NCBI GenBank assembly: GCA_015956445.1
Contig: WIUZ02000011.1
Span: 1,389,501 to 1,453,500, forward strand
Source: Thelephora terrestris
Lineage: Eukaryota > Basidiomycota > Agaricomycetes > Thelephorales > Thelephoraceae
Length of the DNA stretch: 64,000 nt
Direction: 5' to 3'
A program made the translations under genes and the position numbers. Shown in pieces: positions 17,370 through 44,105 of the stretch. How positions within the stretch are numbered: the stretch's first letter is position 1; each line of letters begins with the position of its first letter. Under the pieces are notes generated by a model. That model was not told the DNA's origin. It worked only from the letters and a program-made list of their open reading frames with translations, and did no database searches.

Positions 17370-17972
17370 CCCTCAGTCGTGGCGCAGGTCATCAGTGGCT
17401 ATATTCCTTGCACCAGTTTCTCTCTCGTGCTCGCCTCGGCCGATGGTAGGGCGCACTCGGCCCTGTGCTCGGTCCGTCGAGGTATGTATTACGGCGTGCC
17501 GCACAGGGTATAGGTGACCCCTCCTAGGTGCCCAAGACGCCTACCGGAGAGCACCACGGCCTCAAGACCTCAAGGTAGCTCATCCTGAAACGGCGAGTGC
17601 GATCCCCCACGGACCGCTAGGGAGCCACGAGGTGGGCTGGTGTCAGCGTGGCCATCTGGTGACTTGCGTCTTTTCGACGAACAGCACGAACGCTCGGATC
17701 GACGGGGAGTTATGGCGATGTCCGCTGGGCAACCAGCGATCGTTTTCCTGCGCCCGGGTTAGAACCGTCGATCCTCCCCCTCGAGGGGCAGAGTAAGTTC
17801 GTTGCTGGGCAGCTTGGGGATGATTGGCTGCGGAGTTGTATGGGCGAGCGGGACCGCGTGTCGTCGTAGCTTCGGGCTCCGCCAGGGTTCTTGCCCTGGC
17901 GGGGCCATGTGTCTCCAAGTCGCGAATTGGAGACACGCGAAGCTATGATGGCTGCGGTCCCGCTTTTTTTTT
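17370..17972 (+). ncRNA. Candidate structured non-coding RNA, copy 1 (~600 nt)
   Basis: The 5' end is placed about 25-30 bp after the TATA-like box and the 3' end at a run of nine T. The 3' domain folds as nested perfect stems: 17,847-17,857 with 17,954-17,964 (11 bp), inside it 17,867-17,874 with 17,938-17,945 (8 bp), and inside that two hairpins, 17,880-17,887/17,894-17,901 (8 bp) and 17,909-17,918/17,927-17,936 (10 bp). A further hairpin at 17,723-17,738 has the GNRA loop GCAA. I counted about nine differences from copy 2, all transitions and no indels. I could not match it to RNase P, RNase MRP, SRP, telomerase RNA, U3 or U6 by motif. The T-run suggests RNA polymerase III, but the transcript and polymerase are inferred. 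Confidence 0.6.
17954..17972 (+). terminator. GC stem arm plus T9 terminator, copy 1
   Basis: The 3' arm of an 11-bp perfect stem (GCGGTCCCGCT) runs straight into nine T. This is the usual end signal of RNA polymerase III and is identical in copy 2. Confidence 0.55.
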
Positions 17973-18114
17973 GTCAAAAATAAAAAGATAGGGGTTCAAA
18001 TCTGCGGCTACCCCTCTCACTCTCAGTGTTTGTACATAGTCTGGTTGTGGTTGAATAAATTGTTCACCTTTCGTTCAACCGGAAAGCGATCGATTTCGGT
18101 GTAAAATTTCCCAC

Positions 18115-18430
18115 GACCGCTCACTCATCTTTCCCGTCCTCCTTCACCGCCAACGCTTCCGTGATAGTAACCGCAGTGTCTTCAACAGAAAGCCGAACCG
18201 CGCAACCATTCCGCCGGTTCAAAATCGCGGCTGTCTTCTATAACCCAAGCACGCATCTTGGATCGTCGTGCATTGAGTATCCCTAGATATTTTTGTGGAC
18301 GTTCAACATTAGGTCCTACCTTTAGGGTCCTCGTTTGAGATATACAAAACGATCCATCACGTTCGGAAGAGGCACGCGACCGTGGTTATATTCCATGGGC
18401 CACTGAGATTGCAGATGTATGTTTGTCTCG
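18115..18430 (+). pseudogene. Decayed 5' fragment of DPH1
   Basis: Downstream of repeat copy 1 the DNA still aligns to the first exon of the intact DPH1 gene (44,277 onward). Shared blocks include AACCGCGCAA, CGGTTCAAA, ATCACGTTCG and TTGCAGATGT. The start codon is gone and the frame is broken by substitutions and small indels, so it cannot code for DPH1. Homology fades after about 18,430, within what is exon 1 of DPH1. It is far more diverged from DPH1 than the adjoining RNA unit is from its own copy. Confidence 0.75.
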
Positions 18431-18688
18431 TTCTGGGTGACCCTTGCCACTTTTGAGGTTGGGCGATTGGGCAACCAGACCCAGCTCACAGTCGGCAATC
18501 GTATCGGACGTGGGGCATCGCTTGGCATCGCTGCCTCGTCTGGTGGGAGTGCCGATCGTGGGAAACCCCCTTTTGATTGATCCCCCCCCCCACTAATGAC
18601 GGGTCTGACGTCAGAGATCGGAACTACAAAGTCATCGTAGCCACCATGAGTTCCTCCTTCATAATTACTTCCATCGCCACAGTGCACT

Positions 18689-19465
18689 ATGTCGCTCATT
18701 CGCTCAACTCGAGCAATCCGCCGCCATCTCCCGAACCGCCAGCGAGCCCTCTTTTCAGACTTATCTCAGGGCCATGCCGCGCTCGACAGAGGAACTCCCA
18801 AACAACAACATCCTCAGGACGAGAATGCGAAGTATGTCAAGTCGGGCACATCTCGAGCGGAGAAGTCACGGCTGGATGCAAGTAACCGTGAAAGCGGCGA
18901 TAAACACGCTTCTCGCGAAGGCTTAACCGGGAACGAAGAGGGAGTGGGATTCCAGGACCAAGTAGGAGGAGCAGCCGGGGATAGGAAGAATCCAGAAGGG
19001 GGAAAAGGTGGTGGAGAGGAAGCGCGATCACCGAGTATTATCGGAGCAGTCAAGCAGGCGTTGGGACTTGAGTGGAAGTCCGGAGATGCAAAGCGAAATC
19101 CAGGTGGAGCACATGATGGTACAGGTACAGGGGGGCCCAGGAGGGGCTTCCACACCTCGAGCGCCTCTAATACTGTGGCAAAAAAATCACCACAAGACCA
19201 ACATCGTCATCTCTCATCGAGCGGCCAGAGAACGACTCATCCTGGTTCTCCGTCCAACCGCGTGTACGACAGAGAAGCCAACAAGGCCAAAGAGGCCGCA
19301 GATACGAGCTACGAGCCTGATCGGCTATCTGAAGAACAGGACAAGCTGAGATACGGCGGAAAGCAAAACTGGTCGAAGGGATCGGATGATGGAAAGGGTG
19401 TCGCTGGACAAGATGAAGGGCCGGAGAAAGGTTCAGCGGGGGGAAGGAAGCCTGAGAGGGGGTAG
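18689..19465 (+). CDS. Hydrophilic, probably mitochondria-targeted hypothetical protein
   Basis: An uninterrupted 258-residue frame starts MSLIRSTRAIRRHLPNRQRA, an Arg-rich, acid-free start like a mitochondrial presequence, and later contains RRGFHTSSASNTVAKKS, a motif common near fungal presequence cleavage sites. The rest is Gly/Lys/Glu/Asp/Ser-rich and lacks hydrophobic segments, so it is probably disordered. It contains a short LEA-like stretch, IGAVKQALGLEWKSGDA. I know no family for it. Single exon, ATG at 18689, stop at 19463-19465. Confidence 0.5.
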   Translation: MSLIRSTRAIRRHLPNRQRALFSDLSQGHAALDRGTPKQQHPQDENAKYVKSGTSRAEKSRLDASNRESGDKHASREGLTGNEEGVGFQDQVGGAAGDRKNPEGGKGGGEEARSPSIIGAVKQALGLEWKSGDAKRNPGGAHDGTGTGGPRRGFHTSSASNTVAKKSPQDQHRHLSSSGQRTTHPGSPSNRVYDREANKAKEAADTSYEPDRLSEEQDKLRYGGKQNWSKGSDDGKGVAGQDEGPEKGSAGGRKPERG

Positions 19466-19834
19466 AAGTAGTGATGTACGGAAGCGGACAAAGGCCTCCC
19501 GCATCCAAATCTCTCCACTCCCTTGATATTGTTAAATGCCTGGTACGACAGAGACGGTCGAGGGTTGCAAGGAGAATCAAAGGCCCGTTAGCCACCGCTA
19601 AAAATGTTGCAGTAACCGCCAGGTCGCGTATTTGGGATGGGATTCGCTTTGCGGTCCCTCCGGCTTCAAGACACACAGAACATGGAGTGTATGCATCCTC
19701 TACATAGTTTTTACAGGCAATGGTCGGGAGTCCAATAGAATCCGCCGCCGTAGAGTATGCAGAGTTCGCAGCAGTGTACGATCGAAGTCAGAGGAACAGC
19801 CTGAGCAGACCAGCGCTATATTTCAAGCACCTGG
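19466..19834. other. Intergenic region before the DUF1992 gene
   Basis: Small overlapping frames occur, but none has recognisable sequence. It is presumed 3' untranslated region and promoter. Confidence 0.4.
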
Positions 19835-21465
19835 ATGAGCATCATCACTTCCGTTTTACCTCAAACTCGTTGCCTACCTCTTCACCACGTACCTTATATC
19901 ACCACCTTACCTCGGAGGCATAAACACAATGCTTCCGCCAGTGCCAAACTATTCGAAGATGCACGGCGCGAGGAACAGGTGGAGAAACGGGAGATCGAGC
20001 GCAGGAAACAAGCCACGGACGCTCTCCTCATCCGCCAGGCTGACAGAAATTGGGACGGAGACGAACCGATTGCAGATACCGTCTTGAGGATGTTGGTCGA
20101 TAAGTACAAACCTCTACGGTCAGGAGCGATTATCACTGCGGACGAGAAGCTCTCCAAAGCCGCTCCGTCCATTCGGGTGGGAGATACACCTTCCGACTTT
20201 TTGTCATCGCCCCCGGAGTTGACACTAGAGGAAGCTCCTGTTACTTCTATGCGACTCCTCGCCTATCCGGAGATCGACCGGTCCAAACCACTCAAGGAAC
20301 AACCGCTTCTCCCTGCTGTAGAGGGACATCGGCCTTGGCACACCAGCTTCACAGCACCGTCTCATGCGACCGCCTCTATACGACTCGGTAACATCGAGCC
20401 CGCCAAGTCTGGCCCTTCCCCCTCCCTCGACGAGAAAGCGAGGAAGCTTGAAAAGGACCACAGGAAGCGATTCCAAACTGCGTTCAAGCTGGAAGGAGCG
20501 AAAGAATCCGTAATGGAGCACCGGCTGGGGGACAGGCAACAGAAGCGGGCGCATGCGAACCCTGCCACTATGAAGGGCTGGAGGACGTTGGTCGAAGAGC
20601 GCATACAGGTATTTCGTACTTGTGTCTCGGTTTCTCGCGGTTTCTCATTTTATTCATGCTGATGTTCGCGTTATTTTATAAAGAGCGCTCGCGTACAAGG
20701 CCTTTTTGACAATATCAAAGGCCGAGGCAAGCCCATTGTTACGAGCAACGATGAAGGGAATCCTTTTATCGGGCGTGAGGAGTTCCTCATGAACCGCGTC
20801 GTTCAACGTAATGGTGCCGTTCCTCCATGGGTCGAGCTACAAGTCGGTAAAATCAGGTTCATCCCCGCATGTGATTATTGGTTCACTGAACCGACTTCGA
20901 GTAGACATGGAGTCCGCCATCAAATCATTTAGACAGGTCCTCAGGCAAGCTTGGTCCCGAAGAGTTCTCCTTGTTGTGACGACAGCGACTCCACCCCATC
21001 CGCTGGATCGTATTACCGTGGATTACATCACGCACCTGCGGGACCCAGAGTGGGAGGAACAAGAACGATCTTATCACGAAACCGCCCTCTCGGAGATAAA
21101 TTCGCTGGTACGAAAACATAATGCCATGGCGCCCTATACTGCGAGACGTGCACTGTATACCCGCAGCGTCGAATTGGAGCGGTTATACAAGGAAAGCGCG
21201 CAGGAAATACATGAGGAACTTGTAGCAAAGCTCAGCGGCAAGGAGTATGAACCAAGATCCAGTCCAGAGCGTGGTGACGAAGACGATGGTCCCACCAACG
21301 CCCATGGGACGTCTCTGCCCTCCATTGGTATATGGGCGATGTTCAAAGAGTTGTTTACCCGGGTAAGTTCGCTCGATATTCTGTGGCCAGGATTTACTGA
21401 AGCGCCCCCACAGCGACGTCGGGCTTGAGTTTGGAACACATCAATGGCCTCGTGCGTCATCGTGA
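19835..21465 (+). CDS. DUF1992 (DNAJC28-like conserved domain) protein
   Basis: The start at 19835 is followed by a basic, presequence-like N-terminus (LPRRHKHNASASAKLFEDAR). A later exon has the DUF1992 core: TLVEERIQ, intron, SARVQGLFDNIKGRGKPIV, then NPFIGREEFLMNRVVQRNGA and VPPWVELQ, matching the family pattern of a short helix, GKGKP and LNRIVQ..G..PPWVELQ. The following exon has MESAIKSFRQVLRQAW and YTARRALYTRSVELERLYKE. DNAJC28-type proteins are implicated in Golgi or mitochondrial functions; fungal members usually lack a J domain, and none is seen here. The last intron, GTAAGT at about 21,363 to CACAG, gives a stop at 21463-21465; if it is retained the frame stops at 21428. Confidence 0.72.
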
Positions 21466-21860
21466 TGGCGGCATCAACTTTGTATATGATTGGTGAGGGA
21501 AAACCCGAATTACAAGCGAGGGAAGAACTTGGCTTATCCGGAACGGATATGATGATGCGTCCGTGCGTGGGTGGGATGGGAGGACAAGGGGGGGAGGCTC
21601 GAGCTGTAGAATAAGTTGGGGATATCTTACGTTTTGCCTAAGGATGGCCAACAATGGCGGAAGGAAAGGAGGGATGAGGGGGACAATAGCCGCACTGTTG
21701 CAGCACCGTTATCCGGAACAGCAAGGCGGCGTGTTTGCCTCATGGCGTCACCTATAAATTCCGAGATTCATTCCTCCCGCTCTCTCCTCACACTTGCATT
21801 TCTCCCTCCCCCTTCAAGCGACACACATCCCCCAATCTTCCTTACCACCTACACCTCGTC
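21466..21860. other. Intergenic region before a small gene
   Basis: No coding homology. Purine-rich stretches on the plus strand near 21,560-21,700 give way to a C/T-rich promoter-like stretch at 21,770-21,860. Confidence 0.4.
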
Positions 21861-22306
21861 ATGTCTAACGTCGATGACTCCATCTTCGTTCGTTTTTTCT
21901 CATCCATGGCCCGGCCGTAACGGCGTTAATCCTGACTCCCAACGATCTCCGTATCTACAGCCAGGCGACATCGTTGCTGTTAACAGCGGTCTCGGCCGAC
22001 GAGAGGGTCTCGTAGTTGGCTCTCACATCGACCACCTCGTGCGTGACGCCCTGCTGCTATGCGCATGTTTTTTCTCTCGAGACTAACGTGCCGCCTTTGT
22101 CCTCAGGGCCGTCAAATAATCGAAGTTCAGCTCGACACTCAGGTCGTCAACTACTGGTGAGTCCCTCCTATACCTCCCTGGTGAACCTCGCGAAAATTGA
22201 CGCGTCCGTTAGGTATCCCCAAGTCACCAGGGTGAAACGAACCATCCAATACGCTCAACCCGTCCGTCCCGCTTACCGAACCGTCGAGCGCCGCATCATG
22301 TGGTGA
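21861..22306 (+). CDS. Small conserved-looking protein (~85 residues), four exons
   Basis: Too fragmented to appear as one frame. Exons inferred from splice signals: MSNVDDSIF, then PGDIVAVNSGLGRREGLVVG and SHIDHL, then GRQIIEVQLDTQVVNYW, then YPQVTRVKRTIQYAQPVRP and YRTVERRIMW before TGA. Donors are GTTCGT, GTGCGT and GTGAGT; acceptors are CTACAG, CCTCAG and GTTAG. The PGDIVAVNSG..RREGLVVG part resembles a small beta-barrel (KOW- or SH3-like) turn, but I do not recognise a family. The joined reading is continuous through three introns, which supports its being a gene. Confidence 0.5.
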
Positions 22307-22711
22307 AAAAATTTCCGACAATCCCAAACGCTTTTCTTTTTCACGAGTGAGGAAGTGGGGGTGCGCACGCATGCGTGTGATTCCGCTTCCCCTTCACGTC
22401 GTTCATGGAGTATCGAGAATGTATATGTAGGAGTCTGTGACTGCCCCTTTCCCTCCGTAGTACCCAGCAAGGATCATTTTTCTTGTTTTCTTTTTCTCTC
22501 TCATTAACTCGCGCAACTTTCACCGGTCTAGGGCTGATTCGGACCATCTGTGTTATTATTGCCTCCGTTCTGCCTGCTTGTCTGCGAATTTATATAAACC
22601 TTTCTCTCCATCTCATGGAAGTCGTGCGGAAGCGAACAGGGAACTCGGACGTAAGATTACACGCCCCAAGGCGCGAATGAACCCTCCCGCTGTACCCATG
22701 TTGTCAAGAGG
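22307..22711. other. Convergent 3' region, small gene / ORC1
   Basis: This lies between the plus-strand stop at 22,306 and the minus-strand stop of ORC1. It is T-rich on the plus strand and no gene was seen. Confidence 0.45.
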
Positions 22712-25677
22712 TCAGACACCCAACGCGTTCTTCCACATCTGCCCGCCAATCTCGCTGAGCACCCTCTCGACTTCAATTTGCTCAAGGTTGAGCACGACCT
22801 TCCTCTCACCAGCAGGCTTCCGTTGTGCCGTCGCTCCATCCTCGATCAGCATAGCGCGCGAGGCGATCAAAGAGTCCAAAACTCCGTCAAGCTCTGCGAA
22901 CGTCGGTTTCCGCGTCGGGTCGTCGTCTCCCGTTAGGATGCTCGTATAAATTACGTGTTGGTGTTGAACCTGATAATATCAAGGAGGAACAATTGAGCGT
23001 GAACACCACTAAACAAGAAAGAATTCCCTCACGTCACCCCACTTGACCTCTTCCACGCCCTCTTTCTTGACGCATTTGAGGACCGCGGCCAACATTATCC
23101 TCTCGTGAAGGCTGAGGTCTTGAAGGTATCCAGCAGTGGGAGAATTTTGCATGGCCGAAATGACTTCCTTGACCTCCCTTATCCCCGCCGTCTTCTTGTT
23201 TGGTTGAACGAGTTCCACAGTCCTCCTGCCCACGAAGAAATGCACGTCAGCTGTCAGCGGCAGATTTCTTCGAGAGATGCAGGACGTACCTGCAGATATC
23301 CAGCACCCTCCTCGCATCACCACTTATCGAGGATACCTTCATGGACGCGAACTTCACCCCATCTTTCAAGATAACTTCTGCAGCCTTGGCCGGAAGTCCC
23401 TCTCTCGATTTGTTGAGCCGAGCGAGCACAATTGTCTCGAGCTGAGCCGTGGTATACGGTTGGAAGTTGATTCGAATCATGCCTATGGGAAGAGAGTTCA
23501 CTCCCATCGCCACAAAAGCAAAGCTCTGGAAGGAAACGAACCGAGGCGACTGCGGACTCTCCCCGTCATAACTCGCTCAGGGAGATCCATCGTGTTCGCG
23601 ACCGCTAACACGATCAATTTGGAGTTTACCAGCGTCGGCCAATTGAAAAAGTTGTAGACGACGTCTTGCTTTGTGGTCATGAGTTGGTCGAGCTCATCCA
23701 TCAAAACCACACTGCAAGAGACAGCTCTATGAGGGAGGTGTCCTAGAGATGGGAGGAAGTTCAACCTACCAGGCGTGACCTCCGGGTCCAGCGGAAGCGC
23801 CACCGCTGAGATGCTTTGTTAACCTCTTGAGTGCTTCTTTCCAACTGATTGATAGGTGGCCATCCGCTCCGACGTCGTGCCCAGAAATGGTTTCCCAAAG
23901 CAAGTTATATGCGGCGTGGGGTTCAGGTATCTTCAGCCCGTTAATTTCGACGTAAGTGAATGGATTTGCTTCCTATGGTGGTTCGCTTAGTCAGTGTCAC
24001 TAACAATGAACATGAAAAAAACGCGCACGTTACTCTCGGCCATTCGCTTCAGTTCACGAACTACAGCGTGGACAGTTGCGGTTTTCCCCGTGCCGGGTAC
24101 ACCGGAAATATCTAGATGCTGATTAGAAAGCGAAACCCAGAGAGGAAGGTGAATTCTTGGACTTGCAGATACAGCCACCGCTCCCTTCCTCGACCAACTC
24201 CAAGACAGATCTCAATACCCTAGCATACTCTTCTTCCCGACAGGGCAGTTCGTTCGGTCTCGCAGCCACGTGCAGAACGTGCATCGCTCTTAGCCACGGA
24301 TCCTTCGGCAGCTTCTGTAGTTGCTTATAGTGCTCCTCATTCATTTCTGGCGGGGGCGGCTTCACCACAAACGACGCCTTCTTTCGCCGGGCCCGCAAGG
24401 CGGCCTTCGAGTGCGGAGTGGGCATGGCCAGGTTACGAACCCGTTTATGGCGTGGGGTGGTTATCGCTGACGTTTGGCCGCGTTTTCGTTTGGATGGTGT
24501 CTTCGGGATGCCATCGCTGAGGTCAAAGTCAGAGCCTTCTGGTTCTACGGCGGCATCGGAATCTGAGTCGGAAGCATCGGTTGGATGGGCGGAGGATCCT
24601 GAAATGGAGGAAGATCTGGAAGGCTCCGGCTCGAATCCTTCCTCAGGGATAGCCTTCGTGCGTGGTTTCTTCTTGGGGGGTCTTCCCCTCGTAGGTGCCT
24701 TGCGCGTAGGTTTCGGCCTTTTCGAAGGACTCGGCGGTGGAGATTCACTTTCTGACTCGGACTCGGGATCCGCTTTGCGCCTTTTGGCAATTCGGGTCTT
24801 CGGTTTGGGAGTCTCAGGTACAGTGTTGCTAACACCAACCGTCCATCTAGACCAGTCATCTGGCGGCGCAACCTTCGCATGATCCCGGTGAGCCTCCCAG
24901 ACAAATTCATAGAAGAGACCGCGTTTAATGTCCACCGCCGATCTGCAAACAAAGTGATCGACCTCAGAGACGCCTTCGCCTTCGGCTGCACGTTTTGAAG
25001 TCGCTGGCCAAGGCGAGGTTAGAGGTCGTAAGCCTGGGGCGTGACTTGTGACGTGGCATTTCATGACTATCTCCTGTGGAGAAAGAACGCCCGTGTTCGC
25101 GAGAGAGTAATAGATTTCGTTCTTCACGTACAGGGTTAAAGTTTAGTAATGGTTAATATCGGAGAGACAACGAGCTCACAGGTAAAGCGTCCCTCTTCTG
25201 TCTGATGCTGCCGAGCTGTGCCGGTCGAGCAAACCAATGGACTCGAATTCGCATGGACTCGCTGGGATCATCGTCGTCCCCAGCCTCGTCATCCTCCCGA
25301 ACGACCCTCCACAGCGCGGTGATAACAGCCACACTGGGCGTTTTATTGGTGGACGCCACTAACACCGTATCGCCCAACGAGAACGTCTCGCTCGCCTTGG
25401 ATCCAGAAGCGACAGGTTTAGCGGGCTTCTGCTTTCCATAGGTCCGGACGATCGGTTTGGAAGGGGGACCATATCTGATCAGGGACGAGTAGAAGTGCGT
25501 TTCGCCCGGTTCGACGGTCTCGTCTTGCTGGAAATCCGCGGGTTGTGCAGGACGCGTGTGGAGTGGGCTTGCTGGCCACTTGTACGTTTGAGAGGTTGAG
25601 ATGAGGATTCCCCCGCCGTATCGAGCTGGGAGTTTCTGCTGTCTGTTGGACCGTCGAGGTGTTTGAGGGGCTGTCAT
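22712..25677 (-). CDS. ORC1: Origin recognition complex subunit 1
   Basis: I chose the ATG at 25677 ([20 protein letters not shown]), although the frame is open upstream. The N-terminal part carries a BAH domain: [31 protein letters not shown], then [20 protein letters not shown] and CHVTSHAP. A long basic, disordered linker follows with repeated [16 protein letters not shown]-type sequence. The AAA+ core has Walker [20 protein letters not shown], Walker [15 protein letters not shown], and sensor 1 [17 protein letters not shown]. The winged-helix end includes [13 protein letters not shown] and [19 protein letters not shown], ending [21 protein letters not shown]1 binds and hydrolyses ATP to load MCM helicase at replication origins; the BAH domain reads nucleosomes. 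The neighbour on the plus strand is divergent. Confidence 0.93.
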
Positions 25678-25998
25678 CGTGGCGACGTGGTCGACCTTGA
25701 CAGAGTGGGAAAACAAGCAGTGGGTCAGTATACGCCGTTCGGAGTGTGGAATTGGACACACGCGCCGTAAATCGCGTCGCGCTTCGATCCCCCACGGGCC
25801 ACGGGCCGGTGATGTCCGTTCCAGCCAAACTGGGGACATCCGGAGCCCAGTTGGCGGCATAATTCAAATCGGCGTGTTGTCACTGATGCGTGACCCGCAG
25901 GTTCCTGGGCGCGATATCGATCACGATAGGTTACTGGTAGTAGAGGCGCAGCCTCGCCCGCTCAGAATCATCTGACAAGGGACCTGTTCTTAACTACC
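25678..25998. other. Divergent promoter region, ORC1 / DUF4139 gene
   Basis: 321 bp between the two chosen start codons. No known element could be named. Confidence 0.45.
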
Positions 25999-27845
25999 AT
26001 GGTCGCGGTAAAAGAGACCACGAAATGGTCCTTCAAGGGAGAGAACCTTTCCATCGATACGGTCACCGTTTATCGTCCCTCTGGAGCTCAGATTGTCCGG
26101 AAACTTGATCTTGACCTCAAGGTTTGTGTCTTTGGTCAACATCTGGGTATCTCCGAGAATCTGACCGCCAGCGCACGGTAGGCGGGGAACAACGAGATCG
26201 AGGTTACCGGCCTCAGCAGTGTCACAAACACCGAATCTTTTCGCGTTTCTGGGCTTGGCGATGCCAGGTTACTCGTGGTCAACTGCCTACGTGAACAGTT
26301 CTCTGAAATCTCAGAATCGGATCCCTTCCGTGCCCTCAAATACCAAGTGCAAGAGCTGCAAGCAGAATTGGATGCTAGGAAGGCGGAGGTCGAAGTTTTG
26401 GAAGGGTTTGCCTGCAAAATGGGTGATCACCCTAACCTCACCCCCGTTGACGCCAACGCCTTTGTTGACACCTTATTCGAGAAGACTCTTGCTTGTGCAG
26501 AAATTGTGAGGACGCTGGATGATAAGGTTGCAGAGGTCAAACGGAAGATTAGCAAAGCTGAATCCGAGAGAGCTGGTTCAGCATCCGTGAAGGCCGTCAT
26601 CACCATCGTGTCGGACGATGACGGGCCTGCAGAATTGAAATTGACATATCGTCAGTTTGAAGTCCACGATATCCTCAATACTTTCCCGCTCATACGTCTC
26701 CAGGTGTGGCTGACGCATCTTGGTCCCCCCTCTACGATCTTCACGCCACCTCCGAAGGAGGGAAGCCTTCGAAGTCCGTATCCCTTCACTACCGCGTCAA
26801 CTTGCAACAGCAGACGGGGGAGGATTGGAAAGACGCAAAGTTGACTCTTAGCACGTCCGCGACTGACATGCTCGATGCAGGGGTCCCTGCATCAGATACT
26901 CTGACTGTCCAGCCCAAAGAAAGGTTACGACAGGCTCCTCCCCCTCCCGCTCCTATGACGCGCTCGGCGGCACCAGCGAGCGGAGCCAGAACGCTTATGG
27001 CTCGTAAATCTCTGTCTGCGCCTCCACTCCCCCCTCTAGCACATATAGCTGCAATAGTTTCGAAGAGTCCCATGGCCGTCAGTTATACTGTGGACGAGCG
27101 CACTACAATTCCTAGCGACCCCTTGTCGTACAAGGTTCTTGTGGCGATTATTCCGTTTGAAGCGATGATCTCCCATATAACCAGCCCGCGGAAGTCCCCA
27201 ATCGCATACCTCCAGGTAGGCGCCCGCTCATCAGTTCCTTCAGGAGTTGAACGTTGTCGGGGTCTTCTACAGTGCGCCGTCAAAAACACGAGCGATTATT
27301 ATTTGCTCCCTGGCACCATGAGCGTATTCCTTGACAACTCGTACGTCTCGAAAACGGAAATACCGGAGATCGCGACCGGAGACACGTTCAACTGCACACT
27401 CGGAATGGATACATCCATCCGCGTCTTACACGGGCTCACCGAATCCACCGTGACATCTCCCCCGTCTTCGTTCGTGGAACAATACACGACAACGACCTAT
27501 GTTTCCACCACGAAGCTTCACAACAGGCACGTGGGCGACTACCCGGTCAACATCATCGAGAGGTCGAGCATCCCGACCGCCTCGGAGAGCGACCCTCGGA
27601 TCAAGGTGTTCTTGAAGGGGCCAAAGGGACTGGCGGAGAGCGTGGAGGGGCAAGGGGTCGATCTTGGGAGGGCAGATGGGTTCAAAGTCAAGTGGGGGAG
27701 GGATGTGGAAGACACGAAGAATGGGCAGAAAGAGGGAAAGTTCATTTGGTATGGGACAATCCCTCCAGGGGCGGAGGTGGACTTGGTCAGTGAATGGGAA
27801 GTGAGGGCGCCCGTTGACGCGGAGTGGAGGGTCAAATCTGTGTAG
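25999..27845 (+). CDS. DUF4140/DUF4139 domain protein
   Basis: MVAVKETTKWSFKGENLSID followed by TVTVYRPSGAQIVRKLDLDL is the DUF4140 N-terminal strand pattern. A predicted coiled coil follows (YQVQELQAELDARKAEVEVL). The DUF4139 beta-rich domain covers VADASWSPLYDLHATSEGG, VNLQQQTGEDWKDAKLTLST, NTSDYYLLPGTMSVFLDNSY, IRVLHGLTESTVTSPP and a C-terminus with IWYGTIPPGAEVDLVSEWEV. Proteins of this type are found in bacteria and fungi; the name 'mucoidy inhibitor A' is used by annotation pipelines without proven function. A 57-nt intron (27,216-27,272, GTAGGC to TACAG) is stop-free and in frame, so both spliced and retained forms would be open; family continuity (YLQ/CAVKNTS) favours splicing. Confidence 0.82.
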
Positions 27846-28059
27846 GTGGGATTCAATATACGATAAAACTGCTAAAGAGGAACAGGCTGTATGTATATTT
27901 TACGGATTACTGTGACTGCGGCTTATACGATGGAATATATGAGGAGATACCAGGACCACTCCCAGAACTTGCTACCTCATGCTGCAGAGTAACAATGATG
28001 AGCGAGGCATTATGTCTCGCTTATCGGTGAGCACGACATGTAGTAGTAAAAACCCATCT

Positions 28060-32070: not shown

Positions 32071-32119
32071 GGCGGGTGATGGTCAAGGAGTGACCTCGAT
32101 CATTCTACGCACCGGGCTA

Positions 32120-33318: not shown

Positions 33319-33449
33319 ACCAGGATATCGATACACTACCGTACAGCCTAATCCTTAACCTCGACGCTCGTTTGCCCTCCCGCGAGCTCGAGTCGATCAT
33401 CTTTCGATCGCGTTCATCTCTTCCCTCCTGCGTCCACACATCTGAAGTC

Positions 33450-34241: not shown

Positions 34242-34309
34242 GAACCCATATCCAGCGTTCTACGACAACAAGTTATCAAGATGTGAACTAAAGCTAATGC
34301 TACTCGCGG

Positions 34310-35717
34310 CTAAGGCTCGTCGTCTCCCCAGTCGAGTTCTTCATCGTCCAGCGCCACCGAATCGAATTCGAAGCCTGCGGACTTGAGTTGTTGGATCAGG
34401 ACAGCCGGATCTGCCACTTCGCCCTCGAAATCAGAGCCTTCTGATTCGCCCATGGCATCTGGGCTAGCCATTCCTTCGCCTTCGCTCTCTTCGTACTGGC
34501 CCAGCACGACCAATCCTTCCGGTGAACCCTGGTCGTTGTCCTCCTCTCCATCTTCGCTGCTTCCGTAACCACCAAGAAGACCCTTCACGATCGCCTCGCC
34601 CCTTTTCTTTCCCATGATTTCCACCTTTCTACGCTTTCTGGGCCTCCCATCGGTATCTTCGACAGCCTTCTCGTACAAACCACTGTGTTGGTCGGATTCT
34701 GTGAACCCGCTGTCGGTGAACGCATCCTTCTCCCAAACCTCGATCAGGGGAAACTCGACAAACTCTCTCCGGCGTAGACTTTGCGAGAGTTTTTGAAACG
34801 GGTCAAGCGAGTGATATGATCGAGACTTGAAGCGTTTGATGGATGTACGCGGTAACGAGGGTGAAGAGGATTTAGTGGACCGGATGAGACACAAGGGAGG
34901 GGCAAAGGACTCGAGTTGGTCTGGGGGATTGGGGAAGACGAGCTCTTTCAGCCATTCGAGAGTGGCTTCTGTCTTGCTGGAGTTGGCTTTGGATTTCGCC
35001 TGTTGTTTCGCGGCTTGCTTGAGCTTGTCACCGACGTGGGTCTGGAGGATTGTGAGGAGGGGTTGGTCGATGTCATTCTTGTGGGTCATGAGCCGAATCG
35101 AGTCGGTCGTTCCGTGTCCGTTTACGAATAGGAATTCGATGGTCAGATGTATCTTCTTTTGCCTATATACACATACACAGGACGCTCAGTACAACAGTAA
35201 GAGGGGTGAGAAGCCGTGAAGGGCGCAACCTAGAATCCCAGTAGGATTGGTTCATCTTCTTCCTCTCCATACCTGGCGGCAACAGCACGAGAGGGATTTC
35301 GCGAACCTCAAGCTGGATCTGAAGAGCCTCCTTCTTGGATTTCTTCCTCCTTCCACCTCCTACCCGGTCCCGTTCCGTCACTTGATACTTCCCTTTAGCG
35401 ATATCCCTCCCCCACTCTTTAGCTTTCCTCCCGACGTCCTCCAAGTACACGTAATCGTCCATCAACGCGCCGTACCCGTACTCTTTCATGGGCACGTACT
35501 TGACCTTGTCCCGCTCCCCCGTGCATCCCGTCTGAGTTTTGTGAAGCGAGGAGCAGGCGGCAGAACAGGTTTTGAGCGAGCACCGAGGACAGGTGTATTT
35601 CACCGGTTGCGCGAGGGGACGTGAGGGACAGAACGTGCAAAGCTCGGCGGCTGAGGTCGAAGGTACCGGGGTGACCTCTGCCTGATTTTCAGAGTTATCG
35701 AAAGGGTTCATGGCCAT
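34310..35717 (-). CDS. BCD1: Box C/D snoRNP assembly protein BCD1 (zf-HIT)
   Basis: Exon 1 from the ATG at 35717 contains the zf-HIT zinc finger: LCTFCPSRPLAQPVKYTCP then RCSLKTCSAACSSLHKTQTG with eight Cys/His ligands. It is followed by VPMKEYGYGALMDDYVYLED and PLVLLPPGMERKKMNQSYWD, characteristic of BCD1/ZNHIT6. A short intron joins DSR to QKKIHLTIEFLFVNGHGTTD and LMTHKNDIDQPLLTILQTH. The C-terminal third is acidic and probably disordered (GSSEDGEEDNDQGSP, DDEELDWGDDEP). BCD1 is needed in the nucleus for box C/D snoRNA accumulation, hence for rRNA methylation and early ribosome assembly. The length and the order zinc finger, hydrophobic domain and acidic tail fit the family. Confidence 0.87.
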
Positions 35718-35921
35718 GATGGGACGGATCTGAGAGCGCTGGTGATCGGGGAAAATGACGCAACGACCCGTTCAAACTGGGTGTAAATTTTAAAAGGACA
35801 TTCTTTACTTTCTACGTAACCGATTTATATCTCCACAGTTATCATAATATTATAGGGTTAGAAATCCAAGAAAAGTGATACAAGGCGACAACGACGATCA
35901 GAAGGAGCGAAAAACAACGCC

Positions 35922-37100
35922 TCAGAAGTCGTCATCACCCAAGTCAATCTCGACCTTCTCTCCTGGGTTAAACGCAGGAAGACCTAGATTGGACTGGTCA
36001 GCGTACATTCGAGAGATACTAGCGGTAGTCTCACCTTTGTAAGGGCAGCTCGAGCACCTAAATGCATCACCCAAGTAACAGTTTCCACAACTGCTCGTGG
36101 CCTTGGAAGCCAACGCGGCAGCTTTCTTCAACCTCTCCCTCTCTTCATCGATGCCATTCTCAGCATCTACCTCGACGACCCCATCCGCGTCAAGCAGCAC
36201 CACCTTCAGCCTCTTGGAAAGCTCAGCCTGGTCGGCCTCTTCAGCTTTCTCAATCTCTGCCAGTCCGCAGGTACATCCCTTGCACGCCTTCTTCTTTCGG
36301 GGACCCGCGGAAGAGGTCGCCGGATCGCAGACCGTTGGCCTTTCGCGGTCAGCGGGTGTGAGTAGAGCCTCCGCATCGATCGAAGGGGTGGACGGGGAAA
36401 CCAGCGTCCAGAGGGCTTCCTTCGTAGCCTTCTTCCCAGAATCATGGGTATTGACCTTCCCTCTCCGGGGAAGGGGCATGGAAATAGCTCCAGCACCGGT
36501 GCGGTTGATAGCGGACACGGCCTTCCTTGATTTGAGGGAGTAAGATCGGGCTGGCTTCTGAGCGACGATAGTGGTCCCCGAAGACGAAGGAGTGGTAGTG
36601 ATGATAGTGAACCCAAGCAGAGCGAGTTCGTCTGGGAGCGTTGACCCCGAAGGTGTATTGAGAAGGTGAAGCTTTCCCAGAGGCGACAAACCACTGAGGA
36701 TTTGAGAAGCGAGAGTGCTCAATTGAGATCCGACTGTCCCATAGTCGGACGCAGAGAGAGTAATGTAGACGGAAGAAAATTTCTCCTCGGTTAAAGAAGT
36801 AGCTGTGTGCGAGAAACTTTGATTAGTGCCCGCGCCTTCCGCCTCCTAGCGAGTTGTGAGGGTAAGTAACATACCCCCATCCAAAATCCTATCTACCATC
36901 TGCTTCTCGACCCCACTCGCATGTGCAGAGTCATTCTCTAACTCACTGATCAAGTCTGGGTAGGTCCCATCTTGCGCGGTGGAAGGGGACCCGATGACCA
37001 ACGTGAGTCCTGGGGAACTGACATTCGATTGCTTCCGGTGTTCGGTGCTCCCGGGAGCCATAGGAAGGTCTTGGGCGATCTCAACGGCCACTGGAGACAT
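35922..37100 (-). CDS. DRE2: Cytosolic Fe-S assembly protein Dre2 (anamorsin)
   Basis: The ATG at 37100 (MSPVAVEIAQDLPMAPGSTE) opens exon 1; a short intron (about 36,800-36,870, GTATGT to CACAG) joins ILDGA to TSLTEEKFSSVYITLSASDY of the N-terminal methyltransferase-like domain. The C-terminal CIAPIN1 domain has the first cluster motif CKGCTCGLAE with KKKACKG context and the second motif CGNCYLGDAFRCSSCPYKG followed by LPAFNPGEKVEIDLGDDDF. Both cysteine clusters are intact. Dre2 with Tah18 passes electrons from NADPH for cytosolic iron-sulfur cluster assembly. The NPC1 gene ends upstream on the same strand. Confidence 0.93.
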
Positions 37101-37694
37101 TCTTGCGCAAGGGGGGGGTTTGGTGGAAGTGGGTGGTGGTCGGACTGAAAAAATGTTGGGGTCGCCTGACTCAGCGGTATGCGCTGTTTCCGATCGGGCT
37201 GTAAGGACACTCCGACAATTTATTAATCCATTGAGTCGTGACCTCATCCGGTGTCTGGGGTACCAGCCCGGGTGATGAATCAAATGTAACTTGGGATTGA
37301 CGGACCCGTCTGCACACTTCCTGGGGAGCGTTTTGTTCAATGTTTATAGAGGATATTTGTCTCGGTAGAATGATAAAATACGTGTAGGGTATCGTGGTTT
37401 CTATGCAGAACCCACGACGGGTGGGAATACTCGTCCGATAAGTCCCGAAATCTAAGACGATTTGGGGAATGTCTTCGGGGTCTCGCCGGGAATTGAATTT
37501 GTGGGCCCACTTCGAACGAAAAGAGATAACTTGGATACACTACCAACTATATGTACGAATAGAACAAAGAGCCACATCGGTCTCAGATCCCCCCCCTCAG
37601 TCACTGGCCGTATCCTCGTCCGCGATGAACGGTCTACAAAGAGCGTACACATCAGCCTCTCACGCGAGAAGATGGTACCACGTTACATGTTGAC
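37101..37694. other. Intergenic region between DRE2 and NPC1
   Basis: Probably the DRE2 promoter and the 3' untranslated region of NPC1. Open frames here lack any recognised sequence. Confidence 0.45.
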
Positions 37695-40600
37695 TCACGC
37701 ATACTCGTAATCATTTCTGATGACGTTCGAAACCCACTCCTCGTCAATCTCCTGCGTTGGGAACCCTGCACCTCCCGCTAGGCTCAGTACGACGGGGAGT
37801 AAGACCAATCCGTGGAGAGCCCCAGAGATAATCAAGGTCAACCACATCCGGAAATAGTACATCTATGGGTCATCAGCGATAGATCAAGGCGGGATTTTAC
37901 GGAAGCTCACCTCCAAAAGTTTCGACCTCGTCAGAGCAAGGACACTCATACCAATCAATTTGGTGAACGTGATCCCCGAAAGGACCTAGACCCGTTACCA
38001 GATGAGATCGAAGCAGCCCCGAACAAGTCCGGTCGAAACTCACAGAAGGTCCTACGTCAACTAGGGCAATTCCCATCCTCTCGTCCCTCTCCTTCTGCCC
38101 CGAGGGATGATCGATCGGCAGGCCAGATCCCACATTCATGAAAGCCCTCGCAACGTGGGCGCAGAATTCCACGGCAATTCCCAAAGAAATCACCAAGTTC
38201 ACCAGACTGACCGCGTTCAGATTGATTCCCCAAACTCCCATTACCCCCATGACGGAGACGATCGTCAGGCCAACGACTCCAGTCACAATCAACCCCGTCC
38301 TCCAAGACCCCAACAGTAATGCTGTAACTATTAGCACAGAGGCAAGGCCAAGACCAAGGAGTTCTTTGGTGATCCCGATGATGTGCAGGTATTGGTCAAA
38401 GTAGACGTAGTGAATGGAATAGGGGAATACCGAGGTTCCCGTCTTCGCAGTGAGATCCTCCGCGATTCGATGGGCTGCCTCCATCGAGCGTATGAAATCC
38501 TCTTGAGTGCGCAACGGGGAGTGGAAGGTTCTGAAATGCGACGCCTCGACTCCACCTCCACCCTCTTTCAGTGCCAAAGCGTCCCCATACGAAGCTCGTC
38601 CAGCAAGCGGACAGTCTTCAGTGGTCGGTGAGGCCAGCCACTGTTGCAGGTACTTCATAAATTCTTCTCCTTCAGGAAGTCCGTTCATGGTGATGTCCCA
38701 CGCGGGTTCCCGATCCATAAAGCACGGTTGGCAAAGCCGTTCCGGGTCTGTAGCACGACAGAATACAGCTGGGTTGCGCTTGCGAACGCGGCAACAGGAT
38801 TCCTTTGACGGATCTAGCCAATGGAGGAAATCGTCGATCCACGAGGCAGTTGGTTCGGCAATGAATGATGAGTTCCTGCGTTGCTGTCGCTCAGACTCCA
38901 AGACGTTCGCCAACGAGAACTCATCGCAAGTCGTGAAATGACCGCACAGGTGTTGCTGACCTGTGCGAACCGTCACATCTGAGTCTCGGGATACGAAATA
39001 CACTGGTGGTCCAATGTCCAGATATTTCTCCATGTCCTCGAAATACCTGACAAGGTATGATTCCGACGGTAGTGCAAGTTTCTGGTCTATAAACCGACGG
39101 GGTAAGTGGCAGTTTGAGTTGACGCGGCGGTAATCATACCAAGGCCAAGCTGGATATGTTGGATTGAAATCACTGAAAGAACGAATATCCCCATGAACAC
39201 GACTAGGACAAAACCCTTCACGAATGGCTTCAAAAGCCAAGGGACGTATCGCCTCCGGATAAATTTGGCGACCCGCCCCAGTCCACTCGACTGAGGAACA
39301 TCGTGTAGCATGATCCTCGGAGGGAACCTCAAACACGGGAAGCAGTCCACTCGGTTATCCTAGGACTCTGGTCAGGTCTACTTCCAACAACATGAACGTG
39401 TGAAGCATACCTCGGTTCGGCGCAAATCCAGTGCTAAAGCGCTCACGAACACCGTCACTTGAAGAAACGCGTTCAACAACACGCTCCCAGCGGCGTACAG
39501 GGCAAAGTTCCGAACAGCAGGCATAGGAACCAATGCTCCCAAAGAGAAAGCGATGGTTTCGGTGATAGTGCTCAGCAGGATCGAGGGTCCCATCTTCCCC
39601 AAAGTCCTTGCAACACGTTCCTCCGCCGGAAGATACGTTGGCACAGATCCGGTGTCCGACCCGCCCGTGGATTCGACCTGAGCGCGTTGAACAGTGGAAG
39701 TAGGCGATATTGCTGAGAATGCCAACGCGTTCGGGCCGTGCATTTGATTTTGACGATCGAGTTCGTGGACGAGGATGAAGACGTTATCGACTCCGACGGC
39801 TAATACAAGGAAAGGTATCACCTCCGCGATGATGAGCGTGACCTTGACCCCGATTGCGGAGAAGAGGCCGACGGAGGAGGAGACAGAGAGAATCACGAGC
39901 GAGATGCCAAACAACCCAAGGGCAACCTTGGAGCGAATAAGCGGTCCCCGTGGCGGCCGTGGAAGGAACGATGGGGTATTTCTCGAATCGGTCGAATGGG
40001 CGGATGAAGACACACCCGAGCCGGTGAAAAGCTTGGGAAAATTCACAGCCCACCGCTTCAGCGCGATGAAGAACCCGTCCTCGTCTCTGACGGCAGCTCC
40101 AGTTCCCAGAGTCAAAGAGACGTAGAAGAACATGGCCAAGTACGACAGGACGACAATCCTAACATCCATATTGGCACTCCTGTTCAACTCTTCTTCGAGT
40201 GAAACTCCAGTAGAGAAGGTGTACTTGAGACCGGCCTCCAGCGCTGGTCCTTGCGTATCCAACAAGTACCTCTTGAGTGTGCGTTCCCACTCCATCGCCT
40301 TATCCTGAATTCCAGTGTCCAAGGAATCGGATACGACGTAGTTCACGACCAACGCTTGAGCATCTAGGAATCGAGACGGATTTTCTGGGTCGTTTGGAAC
40401 GTTGCCTAACACGTATTGTGGCATAAGGGGTTGCTGGAAGTCGGGTAAACATTCCGCGGGGGCGTTGGCGCAGTCGACGAACCGCTCGGCCCAAGTGTCC
40501 GGGTCGTATTGATCAATGTCGTTTCCAAACCACGCCATGACCGACTGCACCACACAAGCACCATCGGATCCCGCGGGTTTGAAACAGACGTCTTCGAGGG

Positions 40601-42049
40601 TATAGCCGTTCGGCTCGGACTCGAGGGCTCGAATATCCTTCTCAACACTCGCCCAGAACTTGAGATGGTTCCAAGACAAGACAGGTTCCTTCTCTGGTGA
40701 AGGAGCGGGGGTGATGAAAATTTGTTGAGGTCGATAGAAAGGTCCAAAGTGTTGGTCGAAGTACTCCTTCTGGATTTTGCTTTCGGAATCTGGAGCGACC
40801 CAAAGGCGTACCGGATCCTGCTCTACTTCGAAATTCTTCCACCCAATGTTTAGCAGACCGACGGCGGTGAAAACGAGTGCGAGCGTGAGGTATGGTTTCT
40901 CTGAAGCGAAGAAACCGAGGCGGAAGAAGGACTTGCGGAGGAAGTTGTTCAGTCGATGGTGCCTTGGTTGAACCGTGTCAATCGGATCTAGCAAAGAAGC
41001 ACCACGACCGAGATGATGAGGGTCCGATTGCGACCTGACGGAATCTCCATCGACGTATTGTTGTAATGAAGATGCGCCAACAAGTCCGTGGGTATGTGAT
41101 CTCGGTGACAGAGGAGTCTGTTCCGAAGCGGCATCGGTCGTGAGCGCTACACGCTCGTACTTGCGGTCTTTCCTACCCCAACGCGTCATTCGGAATACGA
41201 GGGTTCCAAGAAAGCCAGCAACAACGAGGCCATACACGAGTGTCAAGGAGAATGTGAGGCATGAGATGGGCCCAATATTGCATGCGGAAGCAGCATCGGA
41301 AGGAGGAAGAGGAGGGAGGATTGTGCAGACATCTGGACAGTCGATGCACGTGCACCTGCTTGACAGGTCGCGATCGAAGCAATTCCGTGGTTGGGGGTCG
41401 TATATCGCGAGCTCTGGAGAGTGGGTGAGAGGGAAGTCGATTTGGAATGGGCTTCCGACGGGTTTCTCATCTCCAAGGTACTTGAAGAAACCTGTGTAGT
41501 TCTTCGCGCCTCCACCGATCAGGTCCATTGCGTATCCGTTGGTAGCACCAAACTTGATATCTTTGCAGCTGTCAAAGAACGCACGTCCAAAGTCGGAGCC
41601 AACGTGAAAATCAACAGATTTGACGCCTATTTGGCCGGTGCTCGTGTTCTGGGTCGATGTCACTTGAACAAATGTCCCTTGGTCTGGGTGGCAGGTAAAT
41701 GCGCAAAAAAAGTCCCGGAAGTTGTTCTTGCACGCCGGGCAGGAGGAAATCATAAGCTCTGCTCGCTTTATATTATCGCGTAGCGTCTGGACTTGAGTGG
41801 ATGTGCAACACACTGGCGTGTCAGCATACTGTGACCCGCAAAGGTCCACAAGCATCTCGCGTGCAGTGCCATCTTCTAGCTATTAGACCATAAGCTCGAG
41901 TACATTGTGACATATGCAACCAGACACGCACGTCCTCCGGAGGTCCGTCGTACGGACAGGGCAGAGCAGCCCCGAACCACCCCTTCGTCCCACACGATCC
42001 ACGCATCACACATACTCCAGACATGTCTGACCCGCCGTTCCCGTAGCTC
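37695..42049 (-). CDS. NCR1: Niemann-Pick C1-like sterol transporter
   Basis: The N-terminal sterol-binding domain is recognisable from about 42,049: SYGNGGSDMSGVCVMRGSCG, then LVDLCGSQYADTPVCCTSTQ and CPACKNNFRDFFCAFTCHPD, cysteine-rich as in NPC1. It is followed by membrane segments, a luminal domain (WVAPDSESKIQKEYFDQHFG), and the sterol-sensing domain, VIPFLVLAVGVDNVFILVHE and MGPSILLSTITETIAFSLGA. The second half repeats the RND fold (SYLVRYFEDMEKYLDIGPPV, LTIVSVMGVMGVWGINLNAV). The last exons read VFSGITFTKLIGMSVLAL and VYYFRMWLTLIISGALHGLV, ending TQEIDEEWVSNVIRNDYEYA with the stop at 37695-37697. The protein exports sterol from the vacuole/lysosome. No signal-peptide exon was found upstream of 42,049, so the start is unresolved. 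Confidence 0.88.
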
Positions 42050-43263
42050 TGCGTGGCTGCAAACAGTGCAGTAGGCAATTATGCCTTCAGGTTCGAGTGT
42101 CGCAGTGGTTAGTCGCGAGTGTCGCAGGCTGTAGGGGAGGCAGAAGCGAGTTATGCGTGTGGTTGGGGATCTCGTCTCACTTTCGGCTCAGATCGCGGCA
42201 ATGAGCAGCGTTTCCCACGACTGCCCACACCCTCAGCCCAGCCTCAGCCTCTTTGTTGTGCACGTCAAGTAACCTTACGGCTTTCCCCAATGACTCCAGG
42301 TATGACTTGGTCATTGGACATTTACCAGGCGATAGAATTAGGTTGACCCCCCCGTCAGGTGATGGCTGCCTGCAACTCGACCAATTTCACTCTTACACAT
42401 TTTGCACCGCACAAATTTTCGGCGCAATCTTCGGCCAGTGGTGCAGTTCCTGTGAATGATATATTTGAGCAGCCCGAGGGAAAAAGCCAAAGTTACCCGT
42501 CATTGGCTCGATTCTCTCGTTACGCGCCCAAGCTAGCCGAAGACGTCGATCGTCACCCATCCTTACTGGGGTCCGAAATCTTCCTCACAGTCCGCACATC
42601 CGCACTCGCAGCTATCCTAGGTTTCGAACATGGTAGCCAATTCTGAACGGTCGAAGGGGGGGAACAATACCGTCTCGCTCAATGAGGCGATTATGATGCC
42701 TTGGAGTGACAATCTGGTCAAATAAAGCCGGGACCAGACTGCTCTTTCTACCACATCGAGAGTCAATGTCGTGAGTAACACAGCTCAGCAGTACATCAAT
42801 CAAGGACCAAAAATCTTGCTCACGGTTGCCACTTCTCCGCGTTTTATGAGAGCCGTCGAAGGCTTTAGGATGGATCCACGCTTATCGTGGCAGTCTGGTT
42901 CCTCTATCTTACTTGCTGGCCCTATCCCACTGGACTGTGAGGGCGCAACGGCGCCGCAGCGGACGAAAATAGTCGACAAATCCGAGTGGGTGGTCATCCA
43001 TGACCGCCACTCCCCAGTTCTATGTGGATGTAATCATACTTGTGAAGACATAAAAGCCTGTCTCCGACAGGAGTAGTCAGGTCCTCGTTCAGTCTCTCTC
43101 GAGTCGTGTGCTGCGCCGCAACTGTGCTATGGTGGTGCGGGCATTTCCGGTCTGTGAAAAACACAGAGAATCCTCCGGACGGGGGTTAAGGATTCCTCTG
43201 TGTTCTCCACAGGTTGGAGACCCCTATCCCGCCCACACCACCATAGTAGGGCGCTTGCAAGTG
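42050..43263. other. Intergenic region upstream of NPC1 and of the repeat copy 2
   Basis: Should contain the NPC1 5' exon and promoter on the minus strand, but none could be pinned down. A direct repeat GAGTGTCGCAG occurs twice near 42,095-42,130. The last ~140 bp holds a fold-back element, described separately. Open frames at 42,359-42,646 and 42,771-43,076 are not recognised. Confidence 0.45.
43127..43246. repeat. 120-bp nested inverted repeat (fold-back element)
   Basis: Outer arms CTATGGTGGTGCGGGC (43,127-43,142) and GCCCACACCACCATAG (43,231-43,246) pair with one mismatch. Inner arms AACACAGAGAATCC (43,160-43,173) and GGATTCCTCTGTGTT (43,190-43,204) pair with one bulged base. It could be a small MITE-like element or the DNA of a hairpin RNA. 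No clear target-site duplication is visible, and it is absent from the equivalent position before repeat copy 1. Confidence 0.65.
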
Positions 43264-43404
43264 GCCTAGGGCGTCTGTTACGGGCGCCTCTTAGCCCTCA
43301 CCCCGATCTTTGTGCCCTAACAACGAAAACACCAGTACAATTCGCCGGATGACTTCCGCTCCCCTGTTCTGGTCGTCAAAGACTCTGCTCAACCTCCCAA
43401 CCCA

Positions 43405-43480
43405 TCACGTGTAATCACGTGAAGCAATAAATAAGCTCATCGCAGAGAAACAGAACCCCTGTCAGCTAAACGTATATAAA
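43405..43480 (+). promoter_or_regulatory. Twin TCACGTG motifs and TATA-like box, copy 2
   Basis: TCACGTG at 43,405-43,411 and 43,415-43,421, TATATAAA at 43,473-43,480. Same spacing and sequence as in copy 1. Confidence 0.6.
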
Positions 43481-43502
43481 CCTGAGGGTTCGCTGCTCCT
43501 TT

Positions 43503-44105
43503 CCCTCAGTCGTGGCGCAGGTCATCAGTGGCTATATTCCTTGCACCAGTTTCTCTCTCGTGCTCGCCTCGGCCGATGGTAGGGCGCACTCGGCCCTGTG
43601 CTCGGTCCGTCGAGGTATGTATTACGGCGTGCCGCGCAGGGTATAGGTGACCCCTCCTAGGTGCCCAAGACGCCTACCGGAGAGCACCGCGGCCTCAAGA
43701 CCTCAAGGTAGCTCATCCTGAAACGGCGAGTGCGATCCCCCACGGGCCGCTAGGGAGCCACGAGGTGGGCTGGTGTCAGCGTGGCCATCTGGTGACTTGC
43801 GTCTTTTCGACGAACAGCACGAACACTCGGATCGACGGGGAGTTATGGCGACATCCGCTGGGTAACCAGCGATCGTCTTCCTGCGCCCGGGTTAGAACCG
43901 TCGATCCTCCCCCTCGAGGGGCAGAGTAAGTTCGTTGCTGGGCAGCTTGGGGATGATTGGCTGCGGAGTTGTATGGGCGAGCGGGACCGCGTGTCGTCGT
44001 AGCTTCGGGCTTCGCCAGGGTTCTTGCCCTGGCGGGGCCATGTGTCTCCAAGTCGCGAATTGGAGACACGCGAAGCTATGATGGCTGCGGTCCCGCTTTT
44101 TTTTT
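43503..44105 (+). ncRNA. Candidate structured non-coding RNA, copy 2 (~600 nt)
   Basis: Same layout as copy 1 at an offset of 26,133: nested perfect stems in the 3' domain (11-bp closing stem 43,980-43,990 with 44,087-44,097) followed by nine T (44,097-44,105). The differences from copy 1 are transitions only. The loop of the hairpin at 43,856-43,871 reads GTAA in place of GCAA, keeping the GNRA class, and one C-to-T change in the base of a stem (at 44,012) keeps a G-U pair. DPH1 starts 172 bp downstream on the same strand. Class unknown; transcription inferred. Confidence 0.6.
44087..44105 (+). terminator. GC stem arm plus T9 terminator, copy 2
   Basis: 3' arm of the 11-bp stem followed by nine T, identical to copy 1. 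Likely polymerase III end signal. Confidence 0.55.

Follow-up and report, generated by a model that had tools for sequence, protein, structure and literature searches.

What are the two near-identical units of about 600 nucleotides (nt) that lie in a single 64,000-nt stretch of Thelephora terrestris DNA (contig WIUZ02000011.1, positions 1,389,501 to 1,453,500 of the forward strand; hereafter the window), one of them beside a DPH1-type gene? We interpret these units, known here from DNA sequence alone, as members of a four-gene family encoding a highly structured noncoding RNA (ncRNA) of about 597 nt, most likely transcribed by RNA polymerase III (Pol III) from a TATA-type promoter resembling those of small nuclear RNA (snRNA) genes and terminated at a tract of nine T (T9); the probability of this interpretation is roughly 0.7. 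Four copies were present in the genome, and a DPH1-type 5' end had been duplicated along with them; the RNA was conserved in excess of its surroundings, folded exceptionally well and matched no Rfam family. We infer which polymerase makes the RNA, where exactly it begins and ends, and what it does. The four genes probably represent a new family of Pol III-type structured ncRNAs serving as ribonucleoprotein (RNP) scaffolds.

Direct comparison of positions 17370-17972 and 43503-44105 (603 nt each, offset 26,133) gave no indels and nine differences, all of them transitions (17503, 17556, 17613, 17692, 17719, 17720, 17730, 17744 and 17879, in the numbering of the first unit, copy A), exactly the pair of ~600-nt units at a fixed offset that had been described in an initial annotation of this DNA. 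The genome searched comprised 40.6 Mb in 60 contigs, and all comparisons in this work were between four paralogues from this one genome. Searched against the genome on two occasions, the unit gave four places each time: copies A and B in the window, and copies C (96% identity) and D (94%) on contig C9. The conserved upstream block (Table 1), used alone as the query, returned the same four places only; further diverged copies of the RNA gene may exist in the genome. High identity was not confined to the 603 nt but ran from about 17131 to 18083, with weaker homology to about 18420-18470. Within the RNA, identity among copies was 94.5-98.5% (98.5% for A and B). The copies differed both in their flanks and in their substitutions, and an assembly duplicate was rejected. 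Two invariant pieces of the RNA (19 and 20 nt) had 0 matches each in a collection of viral contigs and in one of prokaryote genome contigs, neither of which is fungal.

The predicted fold was far more stable than that of shuffled sequences. Folding z-scores for the 603-nt unit were -11.8 (copy A), -10.5 (copy C) and -12.0 (copy D), with none of 20 shuffles as stable in each case, and copy A trimmed to 597 nt gave -9.0 (0 of 100 shuffles as stable), compared with -1.0 and -0.3 for 597-nt controls from the upstream and downstream flanks. The antisense strand of copy A folded about 51 kcal/mol more weakly than the sense strand, on which 147 of 211 pairs had a pairing probability above 0.9. Three domains were distinguished (Table 1). 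The branched tip of domain I and the whole of domain III were almost invariant (190 of 195 and 121 of 127 columns, respectively), while domain II, compared over 17682-17846, showed 90.8-97.0% identity between copies and held all three indel columns. In sliding 150-nt windows domain III alone stood out within the RNA, domain I being missed because its arms are up to 302 nt apart. The 8-nt loop of domain III was GUCGCGAA, which includes the self-complementary UCGCGA; speculatively, this might permit loop-loop dimers. The initial annotation had ended each unit in an 11-bp stem followed by nine T: the T9 was found as described, but the stem at the base of the 3' domain was longer, with 28 pairs. 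One 150-nt segment (43133-43282), overlapping the start of the conserved block of copy B, had z-scores of -3.5 and -4.0 on its two strands.

In part of the comparisons, substitutions between the copies spared the base pairs of this fold. The consensus structure of the four copies had 219 pairs, 99.3% of cells held standard pairs, and one-sided changes (e.g. GC to GU, UG to UA) added 15 further pair types. Fewer pairs were broken than by random placement of the changes in 7 of 12 ordered comparisons (P 0.003-0.013), which are not independent of one another. When random mutants of copy A received the same substitutions (indels left out), 1 of 120 was as stable as copy C and 0 of 120 as copy D. 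A column-shuffle control for covariation was uninformative with four near-identical sequences. The flank at 18084-18420 retained 57.0-73.7% pairwise identity over aligned positions, far below the RNA, or 58.2-73.7% among A, C and D only (part of this flank is coding in B). Because the flanks drifted while the RNA and its control blocks kept their identity, selection, possibly helped by gene conversion, seems to have acted on the unit; and because the identities of the blocks exceed that of the flank, the preserved part appears to be a complete gene, with control region, RNA and terminator region.

The sequence elements around the predicted RNA resembled those of a type-3-like Pol III gene. The TATA-like box proposed earlier was present as TATATAAA in both window copies, the domain I rod began 29 nt past it, the T9 directly abutted the last helix, and the longest T run inside the RNA was 4 in all four copies. 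Type-3-like Pol III genes carry a TATA box at about -30 and a terminal T tract of at least five; all four copies had the corresponding TATA position (measured from the inferred start), the T9 and no internal T5. Elsewhere in this genome, T5-T7 runs occurred within 30 nt after 9 of 9 hits for U6, signal recognition particle (SRP), RNase P and mitochondrial RNA processing RNase (MRP) RNAs. On these sequence features Pol III appears a better reading than RNA polymerase II (Pol II), if an unproven one. The consensus of the B box, a Pol III promoter element of tRNA genes, is GGTTCRANYCY, and a B-box-like 11-mer was found downstream of the T9 of copy A (17993-18003), matching at 11 of 11 positions in A and at 10 of 11 in B and D. 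A B box is not claimed, because this core varies among the copies while its flanks stay constant.

Table 1. Features of copies A and B and of their neighbourhood (window positions; RNA, domain and promoter assignments are predictions)
Feature	Copy A	Copy B	Strand	Remarks
Predicted RNA, ~597 nt, copy A	17376..17972		+	start inferred (TATA distance, first base pair); end = T9
Predicted RNA, copy B		43509..44105	+	98.5% identical to A; adjoins DPH1-type gene
Conserved upstream block	17131..17375	43264-43508	+	pairwise 79-97% over three segments
Two CACGTG boxes in upstream block	17273..17288		+	4/4 copies; starts 10 nt apart
TATA-like box TATATAAA	17340..17347	43473-43480	+	4/4 copies; ends 29 nt before inferred start
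Domain I	17376..17678	43509-43811	+	~303-nt rod; first base pairs with last; multi-branch junction at end; z -5.2
Domain II	17679..17845	43812-43978	+	least conserved; z -0.9, not unusual
Domain III	17846..17972	43979-44105	+	28-pair basal stem; two terminal hairpins (14, 10 pairs); abuts T9; z -13.6
T9 tract, terminator-like	17964..17972	44097-44105	+	4/4 copies
Conserved downstream block, 111 nt	17973..18083		+	pairwise 80.2-91.0%
Decayed 5' fragment of DPH1-type gene	18256..18432		+	after copy A; tblastn E 5e-12; in-frame stops
DPH1-type gene, first frame		44277..44663	+	ATG 172 nt past copy B RNA end; TIGR00322 36.2 bits, cut-off 35
DPH1-type gene, next frame		44685..45329		PF01866 E 2e-12; TIGR00322 40.1 bits

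The regions upstream of other small RNA hits in this genome also had sequences in common. Three U6 hits shared AAACCCGCCG, followed at two of the hits by a TATA-like box after 11-12 nt, and three U2 hits had ACATGGTCCGTGC in common, upstream of TATATA; both sequences are candidate snRNA promoter elements.

No Rfam 15 family matched the window at gathering thresholds. At lax thresholds the locus of copy A (E value up to 10) gave one chance antisense hit to mir-378 (E 8.2), and the loci of B, C and D (E up to 5) gave none. The Rfam search suggested with the initial annotation was thus negative, and its view of the units as a structured RNA of no known class is supported by these negatives together with the exceptional fold, stronger on the sense strand. 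That it had not placed them among RNase P, MRP, SRP or U6 RNAs also agreed with the genome, where RNAs of each class were found at other loci: U6 at three places, RNase P RNA at four places over the cut-off (contigs C17 and C12/C29), MRP RNA at one place over the cut-off (C4), and an SRP RNA hit on C1 (E 5e-10, 52.1 bits) under the 65-bit cut-off; U2 was found at three places. With each class elsewhere and no Rfam match at the four copies, identity with U6, SRP, RNase P or MRP RNA was rejected. Two of the RNase P-like hits were adjacent and diverged (C17:299842-301131) and the others formed a near-identical pair on C29 and C12; C29 is a small contig and possibly an allelic duplicate.

Other classes fared no better. 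A telomerase RNA template is complementary to the telomere repeat (CCCTAA-type) over at least about 8 nt; taking the repeat to be of the TTAGGG type, a CCCTAA-phase match spanning at least 6 nt was absent from the sense strand of all four copies, and telomerase RNA was rejected. TTAGGG repeats were present in the genome, and no telomere array was found at the four contig ends fetched (C3, C9). For 7SK, no Rfam match was obtained in any copy, and a search for its partner HEXIM (PF15313) gave 0 matches in this genome but also 0 in 14 controls. H/ACA small nucleolar RNAs (snoRNAs) have an ACA box 3 nt from the 3' end; the 3' end in all four copies was GCGGTCCCGC-T9, and no Rfam match pointed to an H/ACA snoRNA of snR30-like size. 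A protein-coding gene was rejected as well: the longest sense open reading frame (ORF) common to the four copies encoded 24 amino acids (aa), longer sense ORFs being limited to 42 aa in A and B and 86 aa in D alone, while antisense ORFs reached 49 aa in A and B, 84 in C and 7 in D.

The neighbour of copy B bears on the origin of the family. Its first frame had no Pfam match of its own but, like the next frame, matched the NCBIfam Dph1/Dph2 domain model TIGR00322 (scores in Table 1); in a PDB search the sole relevant match for the first frame was weak (E 0.011), with none for the second. A DPH2-specific model, whose cut-off is 184 bits, scored 11; the gene is therefore more likely to be DPH1, and the position upstream of DPH1 given in the initial annotation fits copy B. 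The same 5' segment, interrupted by stops, was detected downstream of copy D (tblastn E 3e-12); downstream of copy C no tblastn match to it was obtained, yet the DNA aligns there. Copies A and C also had pieces of a further downstream region in common. Since A and D carry decayed DPH1-type 5' ends and C aligns at the same place, the copies appear to have arisen by segmental duplication; the simplest history compatible with the sequences would be that a segment made up of the RNA gene and the DPH1-type 5' end was duplicated, copy B marking the original site. Because A, C and D retain the RNA beside decayed DPH1-type sequence, what is kept appears to be the RNA gene itself.

Several observations weigh against a conserved Pol III-transcribed structural RNA. 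The antisense of copy A also folded unusually well (z -8.3), and domain II was no more stable than shuffled sequences. None of the 219 pairs was doubly compensated among the four paralogues, which are too similar to inform on this point. Five of the 12 comparisons of pair preservation (A-B both ways; C to A, B and D) were not significant (P 0.07-0.48), and copy B stood within the range expected by chance, as 16 of the 120 random copy-A mutants reached its stability. The closest pairs also vary along the unit (B-C with 95.0% in 17131-17250, A-B with 98.5% in the RNA), and because similarity is mosaic in this way, the sequences suggest gene conversion between copies, which would inflate the apparent constraint. 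In the yeast U6 gene a B box lies downstream of the terminator, according to an excerpt of PMC1796607; here no B box was found in copy C, nor downstream of the U6 genes of this genome, at up to 1 mismatch. Finally, U2 genes are Pol II genes, and TATATA started 33 nt before three U2 hits of this genome; because TATATA also precedes these hits, the TATA box does not prove Pol III.

The last point favours a different reading of the polymerase, in which the same stable RNA would be made by Pol II from a promoter like those of snRNA or snoRNA genes, the T9 being incidental, and so does the upstream region, where no U6-style element was found by eye at the RNA gene. With an exact T9 right after the terminal stem in all four copies, no internal T5, and T tracts after every one of the known Pol III-type RNA hits mentioned above, we consider this quite unlikely. 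A long hairpin precursor, made by Pol III and cut by Dicer along its rods and 3' stem into small RNAs similar to microRNA-like RNAs (milRNAs) or hairpin RNAs (hpRNAs), would make good use of the paired arms of domain III and of the ~300-nt rod of domain I. It would not account for the conservation of the branched tip and of the promoter block in addition to the hairpin arms, and the search with the unit gave four copies only and no gene of long homology such as an hpRNA from an inverted duplication would have (short targets were not searched); this explanation is unlikely. It is very unlikely that the RNA belongs to a known class, such as 7SK or telomerase RNA, and has diverged so far that the Rfam models miss it. 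Conservation is poor among 7SK and telomerase RNAs, and a Pol III gene of TATA type whose RNA ends in a 3' hairpin and a U tail recalls the architecture of 7SK, but no template of the length sought was present in spite of the TTAGGG repeats in the genome, HEXIM was not matched (a search lacking a positive control), and Rfam was negative even at lax thresholds.

Two further explanations were rejected. Copy B lies on the same strand as the DPH1-type gene and ends 172 nt before its ATG, as would a structured 5' leader or an insulator acting in cis. This is highly improbable, as A, C and D retain RNA, TATA box and T9 although the DPH1-type sequence alongside has decayed, and a T9 after a stem would be unexpected within a leader. 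A mobile element, either a short interspersed nuclear element (SINE) or a miniature inverted-repeat transposable element (MITE) with a Pol III promoter, could explain dispersed similar copies with a promoter-like block and a T tract. Its probability is close to negligible, however: only four copies were returned, where SINEs and MITEs reach high copy numbers; A and D carry the DPH1-type 5' piece and A and C share further downstream parts; the ends of homology vary by pair instead of being defined; and no inverted repeats of at least 60 nt were found in the window.

If the four genes are indeed Pol III genes for a structural RNA, an abundant and stable RNA would be transcribed and its U tail would be bound by La-type proteins. 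The rod of domain I, with its near-invariant branched tip, would form a platform for protein binding or partner recognition, the tip being the likeliest recognition surface; domain III would be a very stable 3' module protecting and anchoring the particle; and together they would scaffold an RNP not yet described. Few large structured Pol III RNAs are known, and those that are familiar belong to the core machinery of the cell. More tentatively, and with less than even odds in our view, the RNA may rank with the SRP, RNase P, MRP and 7SK RNAs as a large, so far undescribed RNA of the housekeeping type, present in some mushroom-type fungi at least, scaffolding an RNP not yet known and preserved in four genes even as their flanks otherwise decayed. 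If real, an RNA of about 600 nt outside every Rfam family would imply an RNP that has escaped notice in this fungal group, and the claim lends itself to direct tests because there are four copies whose neighbours have decayed.

Other repeated sequences were also observed in the genome and in the window. A family of palindromic (foldback) elements of about 2 kb lay inside contigs C1, C2, C3, C12, C13, C58, C59 and C60 (L037-L046). Nine of the ten elements fetched matched their own reverse complements along almost all of the stretch (85-98% identity), and the first-listed match of the tenth (L046) was 373 nt only and joined its two ends. The ends carried inverted CCTAA/CCCTAA and TTAGG/TTAGGG telomere-like repeats, and the one copy examined (L037) had two ORFs longer than 100 aa, on opposite strands and with the same starting sequence. 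In the window, positions 12011-14503 held diverged repeats (60-300-nt copies, 73-82% alike, most of them about 1.69 kb apart), overlapped by an ORF (13625-14221) with a weak match to Aida_N (PF08910, 25.4 bits, cut-off 25).

With respect to known systems, no description of such an RNA was found among the matches listed in open-licence PMC full text. Two computational screens of fungi resemble the present work in predicting unannotated structured RNAs from genomes: one of 17 RNAs, which covered Ascomycota only, as far as excerpts of PMC8216456 indicate, and one of 15 motifs, in whose main text (PMC5640933) the words "basidiomycete" and "DPH" did not occur. Telomerase RNAs of basidiomycetes appear in the literature, as titles and excerpts indicate. 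The human motif DPH1-85951 is described in part of PMC7941889 as a simple intronic hairpin and is unrelated in place. Turning to the genome itself, the upstream regions of its SRP, RNase P and MRP genes bore no resemblance by eye to that of the RNA gene, although the RNAs are, like this one, large and folded with a T tract near the 3' end. The U6 genes likewise differed in sharing their own AAACCCGCCG block, with no upstream element evident in common with the RNA gene, but resembled it in the T tract downstream of three of three hits and, by eye, in the TATA-like box upstream of two. The 7SK snRNA, a Pol III type 3 RNA, is about 330 nt long; the RNA predicted here differs from it in its ~597 nt, its four genes and its lack of an Rfam match, and resembles it in a TATA-directed start, stems arranged in several domains, and a strong 3' hairpin followed by a U tract.

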